Assembly (NCBI RefSeq): GCF_000425705.1
Contig: NZ_AUDY01000009.1
Span: forward strand, 372,001 to 436,000
Origin: Halobacillus kuroshimensis DSM 18393
GTDB lineage: Bacteria; Bacillota; Bacilli; Bacillales; Halobacillaceae
Direction: 5' to 3'
Length of the DNA: 64,000 nucleotides
The notes under the pieces are model-generated. The model was given only the letters and a program-made list of their open reading frames with translations, had not been told where the DNA came from and searched no databases. A program made the position numbers and the translations under genes. This document shows positions 37,239-45,227 of this stretch, in pieces (position 1 is the stretch's first letter; every line of letters starts with the position of its first letter).

Positions 37239-37270
37239 GTTTTGGACTTTATGGGGGAGGGGCGGCTGAT

Positions 37271-37390
37271 ATCAATTATTTCTTGTGTATATCAATTAAA
37301 ATGGCGATATATCAATTATTTTCCGCAGATATCAATTAATTCAGCAACTTATCAACGAATTATCCAATATATCAATTTAAACACTCATTC
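37271..37390. repeat. Array 1: six 20-bp direct repeats downstream of the NERD gene
   Basis: Units begin at 37271, 37291, 37311, 37331, 37351 and 37371, an exact 20-bp period. Each starts with ATCAATTA or a close variant (ATCAACGA in unit 5, ATCAATTT in unit 6), usually preceded by AT or GAT, and is followed by about 11 variable bases. The last unit overlaps the stop codon of the NERD gene. The constant part is conserved but the rest is not, unlike a simple tandem duplication. Confidence 0.85.
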
Positions 37391-38338
37391 CAGTACATAT
37401 ATTCTCCCTTTATTCCTGCCTACTGTTTTAATCTTCATCGCTTTTAGCAGAATATTAGCAGCTGAGGGAGAGGGAATACGCAAAAAATCTCTGGCCTGTT
37501 TGTTTGTAATGGTTTTTCCAATTAAGAGCGAGTAGTCTTCCAGGGCAGCCACATGAGCGGACTTGCTGATATGAGCGCAGTTCACGCACTTCCATCTGCC
37601 GTGCATACGTTTCATTGGGAGTGAGGAACATTCCGGGCAGAAAACCCCTTTCTTAAAATCTTCTTTTTCTAGTTTGAAAAATTTCACATAGTCATAAAAG
37701 TAGCTTTCGTGATTGGTGTGCAAGTGGGTGGTGAAGCGGTTCATATGCGAGGCATTTAAAATGGGGGTCCGACCTTCCATCAGAGTGGAAATTTTCTCAG
37801 GCAGCGTTTCAATTCGAATGACGTTCTCAAGGTCATCATCGTCTGTATCAATCCTTGCCGTAGGGTGGCTGTTGACGACCAGTCCATAAATTGGAACGTT
37901 AGGAAACTGCCAGAGCTTCAGCAGCTTCCGAAGCTGCCGGGTATGACGGCTTACCTGAATGACTGGATCGGCAAACGTAGAATGATCTTCCTCCCATTTT
38001 CGTTCAAGGTAATGGAAGCGCTGGTTGAAAAACAGCTCACCTCCAATATTTTTCACTTCAAGAATGATTAGGAGAGAAGCGGTTACGACAAGGCAGTCGA
38101 TTTGAAAATGGTGGGTGCCGTCATACAGACGCAGGTCATGGAAAATATAATGGTCCGAGGGGAGAAAAGTAAGAGGATAATTCAAGGATAGTTCGCCTTT
38201 GTAGCCGGTTAATCGAAGCTTCAACTGGTCATTTACAGCTTCGGATTGAGGGTGATGTTCCACCAGTCTCCGCTTCAAAGCCTGCAGCACTTTGATATCG
38301 CTGGGAAAAGTGCGTTCTTTCATAATCATGACATCCAT
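37385..38338 (-). CDS. NERD-domain protein with zinc ribbon
   Basis: A 317-residue protein. A NERD (nuclease-related) domain spans about 45-165 with the restriction-fold residues D81, E94 and K96 (IDCLV...ILEVKN), E49 in YKGE and Q128. A zinc ribbon with C234, C237, C251 and C254 follows, then a C-terminal region (ITNKQARDFLRIPSPSAANILL) that looks like a small winged helix. The protein thus combines a possible nuclease with two possible nucleic-acid-binding parts. ATG 38338 abuts the AAAGG site; ATG 38329 is better spaced. Repeat arrays flank the gene on both sides. Function unknown. Confidence 0.85.
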   Translation of the reverse strand: MDVMIMKERTFPSDIKVLQALKRRLVEHHPQSEAVNDQLKLRLTGYKGELSLNYPLTFLPSDHYIFHDLRLYDGTHHFQIDCLVVTASLLIILEVKNIGGELFFNQRFHYLERKWEEDHSTFADPVIQVSRHTRQLRKLLKLWQFPNVPIYGLVVNSHPTARIDTDDDDLENVIRIETLPEKISTLMEGRTPILNASHMNRFTTHLHTNHESYFYDYVKFFKLEKEDFKKGVFCPECSSLPMKRMHGRWKCVNCAHISKSAHVAALEDYSLLIGKTITNKQARDFLRIPSPSAANILLKAMKIKTVGRNKGRIYVLE

Positions 38339-38389
38339 CCTTTCGCTCTTTCCTTATTCGACATGGAGATCGGTATTCCTTTGGCGGAT

Positions 38390-38509
38390 ATCGATTTTAT
38401 TTTCGATATATCCATTTTTTCTGCGATATATCAACTAAATTCGAGATATATCAATTAAATAAAGGTTATATCAATTAATCCCCAGGTATATCGCTTAAAT
38501 TGAGATGGG
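38390..38509. repeat. Array 2: six 20-bp direct repeats upstream of the NERD gene
   Basis: Units begin at 38390, 38410, 38430, 38450, 38470 and 38490, again exactly 20 bp apart and in the same orientation as array 1. They read ATCGATTT, ATCCATTT, ATCAACTA, ATCAATTA, ATCAATTA and ATCGCTTA, most preceded by GATAT. A degenerate unit may start at 38369. The array lies 50-170 bp upstream of the NERD start, where its promoter must be. Confidence 0.85.
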
Positions 38510-41853: not shown

Positions 41854-42144
41854 ATGGCGATTCAAAAATCCACTGATAGTTCAAGTCTTGCAGAAGTTGT
41901 TGACCGAATTTTAGATAAAGGTATTGTCATTGATGCGTTTGCCAGAGTTTCCGTTGTAGGAATTGAGTTGATTACAGTAGAGGCGCGCGTCGTCATTGCA
42001 AGTGTAGACACGTGGCTGAGATACGCTGAAGCCGTTGGACTGCTTCGTGATGAAGTGGAGGAGGAAGGTCTTGGCGGCCGTCTCGGTGAGAGCGGTTCGT
42101 CTCCAGAGACGGGCTCTCAAGAGCGCGGGGAATTCAGTATATAA
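41854..42144 (+). CDS. gvpB: Gas vesicle structural protein GvpB (GvpA family)
   Basis: A 96-residue GvpA-type shell protein: [21 protein letters not shown] and [31 protein letters not shown] are the conserved amphipathic rib-forming core. The C-terminal tail is acidic and Ser/Gly-rich and differs from the core. It would be the main wall protein here, since no separate gvpA is visible. A strong AAAGGAGAA site suggests high expression. Confidence 0.93.
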
Positions 42145-42177
42145 GCGAACGTCAAAGAAAGAGAGGGTTTTGGTTGT

Positions 42178-42438
42178 ATGAAGGTTTTGAATGCCGTCCA
42201 GGATTTTTTTCAGCAGAATATTGCGCCCGTCCATAAAATCATTTCGGCAAGGAAAAAGGATGAGGAATGGCGTGTCATCGTTGAAGTGATCGAAGAGAAG
42301 GAATATATGAAAAAGTATGCGAGGGATCAGATGGTCGGGGTGTACGAAGTTTTTCTGGATGAGCAGCTGGACATCAGCGGATTTTCCAGAATACGTCTCC
42401 GATACCGTACGGAAATTGATGAGCAGGTCGAAACGTAA
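42178..42438 (+). CDS. gvpR: Gas vesicle protein GvpR (GvpO family)
   Basis: An 86-residue protein of the GvpO family (WRVIVEVIEEKEYMKKYARDQ, then VGVYEVFLDE). It lies between gvpB and gvpN, exactly where gvpR sits in Bacillus megaterium. In haloarchaea GvpO is needed for vesicle formation; its molecular role is uncertain. GAGAGGG precedes the ATG. Confidence 0.85.
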   Translation: MKVLNAVQDFFQQNIAPVHKIISARKKDEEWRVIVEVIEEKEYMKKYARDQMVGVYEVFLDEQLDISGFSRIRLRYRTEIDEQVET

Positions 42439-42454
42439 GGGGGGGGAATGGCGA

Positions 42455-43375
42455 ATGACACGTTTGAACAGCAGACAGCCTTCCTCCCGTACCCCGGGGG
42501 ATGTGTTTGACCTCCCTCACTTCAAATCGATGATTCAGCGGACCTTAAGGTATGTGTCGGCCGGTTATCCGGTTCATTATACAGGACCGGCTGGAATCGG
42601 GAAGACCACTCTTGCGCTTCACACAGCGGAGAAGCGCGGCCGCCCTGTAACCGTTATTACCGGAAGCAGAGATCTTTCAAGAGAAGATTTGATTGGAGCT
42701 TACAGTGGGTACAGCAGGAAAAAGCTTCATGATAATTTTGTCCGAACCGTCCATAAGATTGAGGAGAATGTTTCGGAAAACTGGGTGGAGGGGCATCTTT
42801 ACAAGGCTGTGAAAGAAGGGCATACACTCGTTTACGATGAATTCACCCGCTCCTCCCCTTATACGAATAATTTATTTCTTTCTATATTAGAAGAAAAAGT
42901 GATGCCTTTATATGGAGCCAAGCGGAATGAATCCCATATCCGCGTCCACCCTGAATTCCGTATGCTGCTCACAAGCAATCCGTCGGAGTACGCCGGTGTT
43001 TATGAAACACAGGATGCTCTTTTTGACAGGCTGATCACAATTCCGCTTGAACGGATGGATGTAGAGACAGAAACGGCTGTTGTCATGAAACGGACCGGAA
43101 TGAAAAAAGAAGGCGCAGTAAAAATCGTCTCCCTCGTAAAACGAGTGAATGAACAGCTCGGGGGAAGCGGCAGTCCATTGAGCATCCGTACATCAATCAT
43201 GATGGCGGATATCGCCTATCAGCATGCCATCCCGGTTGAAGGCAGTCATCCGGCATTCCAGCATCTCTGTCTTGATTTTATGATGTTCCCGCTTCAGCTG
43301 CAGGCCGGTGAACAGACAAAAAATGTAGAGGCACTCATTTTAAATGAGTGCCGGAATATAAAGGAGGGATCGTAA
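42455..43375 (+). CDS. gvpN: Gas vesicle AAA ATPase GvpN
   Basis: A 306-residue MoxR-like AAA+ ATPase with Walker A GPAGIGKTT, Walker B-like TLVYDEFTRS and sensor segment LLTSNPSEYAGVYETQDALFDR. It supports enlargement of the growing vesicle. The start ATG 42455 lies behind a run of G residues; the longer frame from 42317 overlaps gvpR and is rejected. Its stop shares one base with the gvpF start (TAATG), indicating translational coupling. Confidence 0.93.
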   Translation: MTRLNSRQPSSRTPGDVFDLPHFKSMIQRTLRYVSAGYPVHYTGPAGIGKTTLALHTAEKRGRPVTVITGSRDLSREDLIGAYSGYSRKKLHDNFVRTVHKIEENVSENWVEGHLYKAVKEGHTLVYDEFTRSSPYTNNLFLSILEEKVMPLYGAKRNESHIRVHPEFRMLLTSNPSEYAGVYETQDALFDRLITIPLERMDVETETAVVMKRTGMKKEGAVKIVSLVKRVNEQLGGSGSPLSIRTSIMMADIAYQHAIPVEGSHPAFQHLCLDFMMFPLQLQAGEQTKNVEALILNECRNIKEGS

Positions 43376-44136
43376 TGGCGGAGGAAACAGGTGTTTACAT
43401 CTTCTGCTGTATACAGGCGGAAGGAGAAAAAGATTTTGGCACGATCGAATTCGAAGGAGAAGAGCGTCGGTTATTTACGCTTCATTATAAAGATGCGGCT
43501 GTTGTCGCTGCTCATGCTCCCGTCAAGATTTACCACCCGAAAAAAGATCCATTGATGACCCATCAGGCGGTCATTACTAAAGTGATGCAGGAAGAGAGAG
43601 CGGTCGTTCCGATCAGCTTTGGAAACGTTTTTAAATCGAAAGAAGATACCGAAGTGCTGCTTGAAAATCTGTATCCACAGCTTGAAAAGCTGTTCACGGA
43701 AGTCCGGGACAAAATGGAAATCGGCTTGAAAGTCGTCGGTAAAAGGGAATGGCTGGAATCCATGGTCCATCAGAACGACAGAATGCAGAAGCAGAAGGAA
43801 ACGGTGAAAGGGAAATCAGAAGCCGCCGGCTATTTCGACCGGATTCAGCTTGGGGAAATGGCCCGTGATTTCTTTACCGACATCCAGAATGATGTAGAGA
43901 AACGAATCCATGAACCTCTCGCAGAACTTGCGGAAGCCGCTAAGAAAAATGATACCTTAGGAGAAAAAATGCTGCTGAACGGCGCGTACTTAATCGATCG
44001 GGACAAAGAGGAAGTCTTTGATGCCCTTGTTAACGAGCTTTACCAGACGTGGGGCGATTATGTGGATTTCAAGTATACAGGTCCGTGGGCCCCTTATAAC
44101 TTCATCCATATCCAGTTGAAAGTGGAAGCTTCATGA
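43375..44136 (+). CDS. gvpF: Gas vesicle protein GvpF
   Basis: A 253-residue member of the GvpF/GvpL family, recognised from the N-terminal GVYIFC beta-strand, VPISFGNVF and the C-terminal TGPWAPYNF. GvpF contacts GvpA and is thought to nucleate or chaperone assembly. AAAGGAGGGAT precedes ATG 43375. Its stop overlaps the gvpG start by 4 bp. Confidence 0.92.
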   Translation: MAEETGVYIFCCIQAEGEKDFGTIEFEGEERRLFTLHYKDAAVVAAHAPVKIYHPKKDPLMTHQAVITKVMQEERAVVPISFGNVFKSKEDTEVLLENLYPQLEKLFTEVRDKMEIGLKVVGKREWLESMVHQNDRMQKQKETVKGKSEAAGYFDRIQLGEMARDFFTDIQNDVEKRIHEPLAELAEAAKKNDTLGEKMLLNGAYLIDRDKEEVFDALVNELYQTWGDYVDFKYTGPWAPYNFIHIQLKVEAS

Positions 44137-44390
44137 TTCATAAACTGTTCACTTCTCCGATCACTTTGATTAAAAAAGTCGGTGAGCACGTCAAAGAAGA
44201 AGTGGATAAGGAATGGTACGATCTGGAGCACATCCAGAAAAAAATCATCCAGCTTCAGATGATGTATGAACTGGAGGAAATCTCTGAAGAAGCGTATGAG
44301 CAGCAGGAGGAAGAACTGATGCTGCGCTATGAGATGGCCAAAAAGCGGGAGATGGAACAATGGGAAGAGATGACGAAACGGTATGAATAG
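44133..44390 (+). CDS. gvpG: Gas vesicle protein GvpG
   Basis: An 85-residue protein with the GvpG N-terminus (IHKLFTSPITLIKKVGEHVKEE) and a long charged helix rich in Glu, Gln and Met. It starts in an ATGA overlap with gvpF. It is an accessory protein in the F-G-L sub-cluster. Confidence 0.9.
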   Translation: MIHKLFTSPITLIKKVGEHVKEEVDKEWYDLEHIQKKIIQLQMMYELEEISEEAYEQQEEELMLRYEMAKKREMEQWEEMTKRYE

Positions 44391-44402
44391 GGAGTTTTTA
44401 TT

Positions 44403-45227
44403 ATGGAAGAATTGTTATACCTGTATGGCGTGACGTGGAAGGAAGAAGCACAGGAGACGGATATGACTCAGTGGAGAGGCGTGGATGACTCTCACCACCT
44501 TTTCCACATTGAGCTTGGAAATCTGGCAGCTGTCGTCAGCTTCGTAGATGAATCCGAATTCGGGGAAGAAGTGCTGGAGGAAAAAACAAATGAAATGGAA
44601 TGGCTCAGGAAAAAAGCTTTCCGCCATCACGAAGTCCTGCTGCAGCTGAACGACGGGATGACACTGATTCCGATGAAATTCGCAACAATTTTTAAGAAGG
44701 AAGAAAATCTTCAGCATAAAGCGGCAGTCTATGAAACGGAATGGAAGATCATTCTTCAGCAGCTGCAAGGGACGGAAGAGTGGAATGTGAAAATTTATAA
44801 CCGCTCCGACCTCCTTAAGGAACATACAGCTGCCCGGCACCCGGAGGTTATGAAGCGGAAAGAGGATATTGCGCAGATGTCAAAAGGAATGCAGTACCTT
44901 CAGACGAAAAAGCTCGACAGTTTTATTCAAGAAATCGTCTCGCAGGAACAGGAGACCTATGCAGGGAATCTTCATCACCGCTTCAAGGAGTTTTGTGTCG
45001 ACACAAATAGTAAGAAAGTGTGGAACAAGAATGTAACCGGCAAAGACGAGGAAATGTGCTGGAACGGTGCCTACCTTTTGAAAAAAGAGCAGGTGGAACC
45101 TTTCCTGGAGCAGGTCACTACTGCTCAGGAAAACGGAAGGGATGCGGGATGGATGATCGAAGTGACCGGTCCGTGGCCTCCCTATCACTTTTCAGACACG
45201 AAAACCGTCAGCGGGGTGGAGGGATGA
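44403..45227 (+). CDS. gvpL: Gas vesicle protein GvpL
   Basis: A 274-residue second GvpF/L-family protein (LYLYGVTWKEE start, TLIPMKFATIFK middle, TGPWPPYHF near the end). It is a paralogue of GvpF and in haloarchaea interacts with most accessory Gvp proteins. Its stop overlaps gvpS by 4 bp. Confidence 0.92.
   Translation: MEELLYLYGVTWKEEAQETDMTQWRGVDDSHHLFHIELGNLAAVVSFVDESEFGEEVLEEKTNEMEWLRKKAFRHHEVLLQLNDGMTLIPMKFATIFKKEENLQHKAAVYETEWKIILQQLQGTEEWNVKIYNRSDLLKEHTAARHPEVMKRKEDIAQMSKGMQYLQTKKLDSFIQEIVSQEQETYAGNLHHRFKEFCVDTNSKKVWNKNVTGKDEEMCWNGAYLLKKEQVEPFLEQVTTAQENGRDAGWMIEVTGPWPPYHFSDTKTVSGVEG

Follow-up and report, generated by a model that had tools for sequence, protein, structure and literature searches.

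The 64,000-nucleotide stretch of Halobacillus kuroshimensis DSM 18393 analysed here (the window; RefSeq assembly GCF_000425705.1, contig NZ_AUDY01000009.1, positions 372,001 to 436,000) carries a gene encoding a protein with a NERD domain, a zinc ribbon and a putative winged helix, and on either side of this gene lies an array of short, regularly spaced direct repeats. Judging from sequence comparisons, proteins of this composition and phased arrays of this kind are almost certainly cognate pairs, and the explanation that best accounts for the whole, to which we assign a probability of about 0.6, is that the protein is a sequence-specific nuclease of the PD-(D/E)XK type whose cognate arrays are dispersed over the chromosome. 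The pairing of gene and array, its generality, the co-variation of the two partners, the dispersal of motifs private to one genome, the change of array length by whole units and the absence of one array from relatives can all be read from the sequences. The features of the locus are:

37267..37386, minus strand: array 1, six 20-bp units with GATATA on the gene strand, adjoining the 3' end of the NERD gene, the last unit overlapping the stop codon
37385..38338, minus strand: NERD gene, 317 aa (nuclease-type domain, zinc ribbon, winged helix)
37874..38206, minus strand: NERD (PD-(D/E)XK-type) domain, residues 45-155, with conserved E49, D81, E94, K96 and Q128
37577..37639, minus strand: zinc ribbon, cysteines 234, 237, 251 and 254
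37388..37555, minus strand: C-terminal winged-helix part, residues 262-317, proposed array reader on the grounds of the AlphaFold2 model and of the motif tracking the C-terminal half
38386..38505, minus strand: array 2, six 20-bp units, starting 47 bp upstream of the NERD gene start codon

A first-pass annotation, made from the letters of the window, had described two six-unit arrays with an exact 20-bp period and a single direction flanking the NERD gene, and a profile scan found them at these places, starting at 37267 and 38386, with six units each and every spacing equal to 20 bp. The unit core on the gene strand is AATTGATATA with variants, and both arrays read TATATC on the plus strand and GATATA on the strand of the gene. 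The profile used for counting was built from the window units themselves, and independent support comes from a scan with free period (14 to 30), in which period 20 came out on either side of the gene with z = 12, against 5.85 for the 99% level of shuffles. Recent tandem duplication, which the annotation had disfavored, was rejected as the sole origin of the window arrays, since their tails diverge while heads and phase are kept.

The domain composition proposed for the protein also held. In a Pfam scan, NERD (PF08378) was the only family above its cut-off (E 5.5e-20, 72.4 bits against a cut-off of 22.1), and no initiator family matched. The zinc-ribbon cysteines, arranged as CxxC pairs, are invariant in all 58 aligned sequences that reach this region, and an AlphaFold2 model built with 39 family sequences (mean pLDDT 95.2) predicts a C-terminal helix-turn-helix followed by strands. 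Among 59 aligned relatives no substitution occurs at E49, D81 or Q128, and E94 is replaced by D in three. K96 is replaced by N in three, at loci L088, L089 and L090 (genomes G003, G007 and G006), all lacking flanking arrays; these come from congeners and may represent one event, and other array-less loci retain K96. A Foldseek search of the PDB returned weak matches alone, none with E <= 0.001, among them Bax1, Can2, the R2 endonuclease and BspD6I. Comparison with defense families gave partial matches of the NERD part to the PglW, MkoA and MAD6 models, below the NCBIfam cut-offs where these are given. A phage or plasmid home was rejected, as the window protein had no match in 50,697 phage and 72,556 plasmid records and none in viral contigs, and the contigs concerned are chromosomal, of at least 0.5 Mb. 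Two NERD genes, L079 (G004) and L150 (G361), contain one internal stop codon each, with arrays still alongside.

The link between NERD gene and array extends well beyond the window. We assembled 119 related loci, 60 from two homologue searches and 59 of 60 fetched later (L169 was dropped); the set is non-random, the 40 genomes of one of these searches being hand-chosen (14 with and 26 without TATATC arrays), the fetched loci being mostly the better-scoring full-length ones, and L093, of different architecture, still being counted. Each flank was searched over 700 bp with free period, at a threshold set to the 99% level of shuffled flanks (5.85; one shuffled flank scored 69.8, perhaps owing to a run of N). 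At least one array of period 20 or 21 was detected at 98 of the 119 loci. Of 235 flanks, 122 exceeded the threshold, 116 of them at period 20 (44) or 21 (72) and the remaining six at periods 15, 16, 27 or 30, so that the spacing close to two helical turns, which the annotation had emphasized for the window, is a general property. Among control segments of equal length (86 from the window and 71 from outer parts of the same loci) ten of 157 passed the threshold and five did so at period 20/21. A simpler statistic, from which three of 60 loci were omitted because their flanks were too short, found arrays at 50 of 57 loci versus 1 of 102 window segments, 3 of 114 outer flanks and 1 of 57 gene bodies. 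The two-sided bracketing seen in the window proved to be the minority form, present at 18 of the 119 loci.

In a phylum-wide sample of 398 genomes, 82 had a match (at most five candidates were scored per genome), and the full-length matches listed belong to the same order and to one other member of the class (G591). Arrays of 20/21 bp were found at four of the five full-length loci from this sample; the fifth (L247, in G591) scored at period 16 and by eye shows 21-bp units within a super-repeat of about 81 bp. Loci matching mainly in the NERD part had such an array in none of 24 cases, their flanks being cut at the edge of the match and hence including some reading frame. The family reaches up to 13 NERD matches per genome. 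At several loci (L298, L104, L126 and others) a period of 40-42 bp is stronger than that of 20-21 bp, as if units alternated in pairs, and some arrays elsewhere are long and may be recent expansions, with 34 units at L204 and 25 at L205, and others in G113 and G234.

The unit sequences differ between paralogues, each protein having its own motif, as illustrated by the following consensus sequences in gene orientation:

L142, both sides: GTTACTGTTGATT
L154, both sides: AAATGATCGATAAA
L103: GTTAGGGAACAAT
L196, both sides: GGCTGGTAAA
L077: TTTAATTGATATA

Where arrays stand on both sides of a gene, the two motifs agree at 0.86 or more in 17 of 18 loci and at 0.77 in the other, while comparisons across loci have a 95% level of 0.75 and a maximum of 0.85. 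The two arrays are co-oriented in 17 of these 18 loci, the sole exception being L132 (G165:C62), in which the upstream and downstream arrays are opposed. Over all 98 loci, GATA or GGTAA occurs in the sense consensus at 30 and in the antisense at 4.

The motif tracks the C-terminal half of the protein. Across 97 loci (4656 pairs), the correlation of motif similarity with sequence identity was 0.35 for the winged-helix part, 0.32 for the C-terminal part and 0.24 for the nuclease part; the partial correlation for the C-terminal given the N-terminal half was 0.24, a value reached in none of 500 permutations, and that for the N-terminal given the C-terminal half was 0.10. The same tendency is seen in 27 pairs of proteins whose nuclease halves are at least 85% identical. 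In the 16 pairs with a C-terminal identity of at least 55%, motif similarity is 0.83-1.00, orientation is shared and the period is shared in 15, whereas in the 11 pairs with C-termini only 39-49% identical motif similarity falls to 0.58-0.72 and the period is shared in just three, differing in eight. The proteins L077, L078 and L080-L083 constitute, by their sequences, a natural domain-swap series at one locus, which shares its downstream neighbor with the window gene (L075-L083). Within it, L077 goes with a 20-bp TTTAATTGATATA array and L083 with a 21-bp ACnGATAAA array. Taken with the predicted fold, this behavior strongly suggests that the winged helix reads the repeat unit.

Arrays are not confined to the vicinity of their gene. 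The genome of H. kuroshimensis (3.85 Mb) contains at least 13, two at the NERD gene and 11 without any NERD gene, the window gene being the single match of its own protein in this genome. The NERD-free arrays are situated as follows:

contig C1: 212, 254, 307 and 427 kb
contig C2: 160.7, 161.7, 191.7, 191.8 and 368 kb
contig C6: 47.7 kb
contig C10: 64 kb

With the profile of the window arrays, eight of the 13 (the window pair included) have six units, three have five and two have three; the two three-unit arrays have GTC-type units and show six in a looser scan, from which only clear 20-bp chains were used. A coding repeat was rejected, as 20 is not a multiple of three and eight of the 11 arrays checked overlap no open reading frame of 90 aa or more; of the other three, two overlap a 93-aa frame and one lies in the probably over-long 5' extension of a 328-aa frame. 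Upstream of a dispersed array at 4154-4261 in L008 stands the palindrome ATTTCCCGGGAAAT, which we take to resemble a Noc-binding site.

Motifs read beside one gene were then scanned over the gene's own genome and over others. For the L142 motif, its own genome (G189) yielded 76 unit pairs, of which 67, at 25 places, are not at the gene; 19 other genomes, four of them from the same genus, yielded no pair. With the L154 motif, 43 pairs were found in its own genome (G163), 33 of them not beside the gene; ten of 19 other genomes had none and nine had 38 in total, including 11 in G189 and 9 in G345, and many of the G189 matches resemble the motif of that genome's own L190. In G016 the L103 motif occurred as nine pairs, located at the gene and at one other site, and in G017 as eight pairs at five sites; it was found in none of 20 other Halobacillus. 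The closest relative of the L103 protein in our set is L100 of G017, which has no array above threshold beside its gene; the C-terminal parts of the two proteins are 47% identical and their predicted recognition helices nearly so (SRKVAWRLLxEACPE).

Comparison with H. litoralis (G011), whose aligned stretches are 81-97% identical to the window genome, gives insight into how arrays come and go. Several arrays occupy orthologous places in both species. An array is also found in H. litoralis at the place of array 1, with GTC-type units, and the second array at C2 191 kb has six units in the window genome versus three in H. litoralis. A stretch of about 190 bp containing the array at C2 160.7 kb is missing from H. 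litoralis. Among 12 other Halobacillus (of 21) both flanks of this spacer were found in nine, none of which has a TATATC array, the right flank not being found in three; with both flanks located, the array is absent from H. litoralis and from eight more congeners. This points to a gain of the array in the window lineage. No two dispersed copies of the window genome align over more than 109 bp, which corresponds to the array itself, and in G163 the alignments are mostly 96-129 bp, with two longer (182 and 210) and one of 42. In both genomes the shared unit of the copies is essentially the array. In G189 about 13 of the 20 copies examined (of 25 places; L221-L240) lie in the middle of a repeat of about 440 bp bearing imperfect terminal repeats, TGATTATCCC ... 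GGTACAATCA, and what the remaining copies have in common is mainly a degenerate leader unit, CACTTATTGATT, and the units that follow it. The flanks of the G189 copies gave no convincing match to the NERD locus beyond array and leader unit, the one match of 160 bp (74%) lying far from the array. No terminal inverted repeats or target duplication were seen around the copies of the window genome. A hairpin-forming repeat was unsupported, six arrays folded as single-stranded DNA being no more stable than shuffled sequences (z from -0.85 to +1.03), and CRISPR was set aside because the constant part is too short, no search for cas genes being made.

Based on these observations, we hypothesize that the gene and its arrays together make up a single system. 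The C-terminal winged helix of the PD-(D/E)XK-type protein would read one repeat unit, and units spaced by 20 or 21 bp, about two helical turns, would let several copies of the protein, often about six, bind next to one another along a single face of the helix. Arrays lie directly past the stop codon and/or upstream of the gene, with further copies across the intergenic DNA of the same chromosome, and would act as non-autonomous dispersing repeats of their nuclease. The bound protein would nick or cut the DNA at or near the array, both the side-by-side binding and the cutting being steps that we infer. Subsequent repair or strand transfer would copy or rearrange the array, whereby whole units are gained or lost and new intergenic places are reached. 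That the nuclease itself drives this spreading is the most uncertain step, one that we place slightly below even odds. The nuclease gene would meanwhile keep a fixed locus and be inherited vertically, and its exchangeable DNA-reading half would permit the target motif to be switched in place.

Several observations weigh against this proposal. The co-variation statistic controls for kinship through the nuclease half alone, and the 11 pairs with diverged C-termini stem from the six proteins of a single locus. The comparison with NERD-only loci is weakened by their origin in other taxa. No array above threshold was detected at 21 of the 119 loci, most of which have K96 intact. G009 and G021 still carry TATATC arrays although their protein at the window-equivalent locus now goes with another motif, and the idea that TATATC arrays in Halobacillus imply a close NERD orthologue was consequently dropped. 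The spacer orthologous to that of C2 160.7 kb (L041:3550-3870) carries another 21-bp array by eye, [AG]TAACGYCCTAA, in G021 (L276), and apparent remnants, also by eye, in G002, G005 and G012; it has been occupied more than once, and gain, loss and replacement are not cleanly separated. In G189 another kind of mobility may have carried the copies within the 440-bp repeat, and a target duplication was established for none of the arrays. The first-pass annotation had held that its link would break if homologous NERD genes lacked arrays or if the same arrays occurred at many loci without a NERD gene. Both were encountered in part, in the array-less homologues and in the many NERD-free places, yet the link stands, given that changes in the C-terminal half of the protein go together with changes in the unit sequence.

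The protein might instead be mainly a DNA-binding regulator or chromosome organizer, in which case arrays at its own gene would serve autoregulation, dispersed arrays would be maintained sites such as loops or roadblocks at gene ends, and the nuclease would be secondary. Such a role would suit the upstream arrays, which lie at a median of 128 bp before the start codon, the orthologous placement of several arrays in H. litoralis, and the preservation of unit phase despite variable tails. We nevertheless consider it unlikely, given that the active-site residues are conserved in at least 56 of 59 sequences at each position and that motifs are private to single genomes and altered by domain exchange. 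Moreover, the dispersed G189 arrays show no orientation bias relative to the neighboring genes (6 ++, 9 --, 3 diverging and 2 incomplete), and a promoter-like regulon was rejected on this ground. Another possibility is that the arrays keep the nuclease inactive or mark self, the free protein attacking DNA as a toxin with a DNA antidote or as a defense nuclease, and the dispersed arrays being extra sinks or marks. The position of arrays next to a nuclease gene would fit, as would the weak profile similarity of the NERD part to the NERD-bearing defense proteins PglW and MAD6 and the diversification of target specificity by domain exchange, a route that restriction systems likewise follow. However, the protein as a whole fits no curated defense family, the window genome has its 11 other arrays dispersed and not clustered at the gene, the window neighbors, as named from reading the sequence, are ordinary metabolic and transport genes, and 21 of 119 genes lack a detectable adjoining array; this explanation seems decidedly unlikely.

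The arrays could also be independent satellites or parts of elements resembling miniature inverted-repeat transposable elements, moved by unrelated machinery and only recognized or policed by the NERD protein. The 440-bp repeat of G189 and the arrays outlasting their cognate protein in G009 and G021 would fit such an origin, but it leaves the arrays directly beside the gene at 98 of 119 loci unexplained, and the copies of the window genome share at most 109 bp, the array itself. We regard it as very improbable. As for chance or an artefact of alignment, AT-rich intergenic DNA can seem repetitive, and a scan at a loose threshold did give many false chains; the controls described above (5 of 157 segments, none of 24 NERD-only loci) and the genome-private motifs already refute this explanation, whose likelihood we deem negligible.

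Elsewhere in the window, a run of frames at 41854-45227 resembles a gas vesicle gene cluster, its members being, we assume, GvpA-, GvpN-, GvpF/L- and GvpG-like.

No description of NERD genes with repeat arrays was found in the open-licence texts of PubMed Central, a search that could miss a subscription paper or a preprint, and passages of PMC12802215, PMC4057527, PMC6563490 and PMC9040797 describe no pairing of NERD gene and array. We tentatively suggest, with somewhat more doubt than confidence, that a new class of self-spreading module is represented here, consisting of a PD-(D/E)XK-type nuclease encoded by a single gene, with a winged-helix reading head that can be exchanged, and of the phased arrays cognate to it. 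A genome would contain several paralogous pairs that differ in motif, and the modules would have repeatedly colonized the intergenic DNA of Bacillales chromosomes and switched target by swapping the head in place. Should a nuclease with cognate dispersed arrays be confirmed, a role would be at hand for a NERD family so numerous in some genomes. The 98 loci with a readable motif, in-place swaps included, supply a naturally occurring set of DNA-reading domains whose targets can be read off, and a recognition code could be derived from it. Why the period is 20 or 21, why there are often six units, what the nuclease targets and by which route arrays reach new intergenic places become directly testable questions.

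Parts of this architecture recall known systems. The iterons of plasmid replication origins likewise consist of direct repeats, measuring about 20-21 bp and recognized by winged-helix proteins, but the arrays described here are chromosomal and dispersed, their protein has a nuclease domain, and it is without a match among the plasmid records searched. In TnsA and in R2-type endonucleases a PD-(D/E)XK fold is joined to a DNA-binding or zinc part within a mobile element; in the present case, a single gene is found with no partner transposase or reverse transcriptase seen, and all fold matches had E above 0.001. The switching of specificity in type I restriction, in which the DNA-reading part is exchanged and the catalytic part kept, provides a parallel for the domain swaps, with the difference that the target here is a phased array. 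SmdA and similar NERD proteins have the domain name in common, and passages of PMC9040797 mention no repeats; according to this 2022 paper, no earlier experimental work had addressed what the NERD domain does. In its proposed mode of operation the system resembles the RAYT transposases and their REP/REPIN repeats, which comprise cognate short repeats beside the gene and dispersed extragenically, repeat groups specific to each protein and a stably placed gene (PMC3116915). In both cases a nuclease-type protein has its own repeats beside the gene and scattered in the same genome, and the gene is stably placed, as seen here for the Halobacillus locus. Nevertheless, RAYT is a tyrosine (Y1/HuH) transposase and REP sequences are palindromic and hairpin-forming, whereas the present system comprises a NERD/PD-(D/E)XK-type protein with a winged helix and phased direct repeats. 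We do not file it as a RAYT/REP system because these two defining features, enzyme class and hairpin repeats, are lacking; if the proposal is true, it would stand beside RAYT/REP as a second, unrelated system of a nuclease with dispersed repeats.
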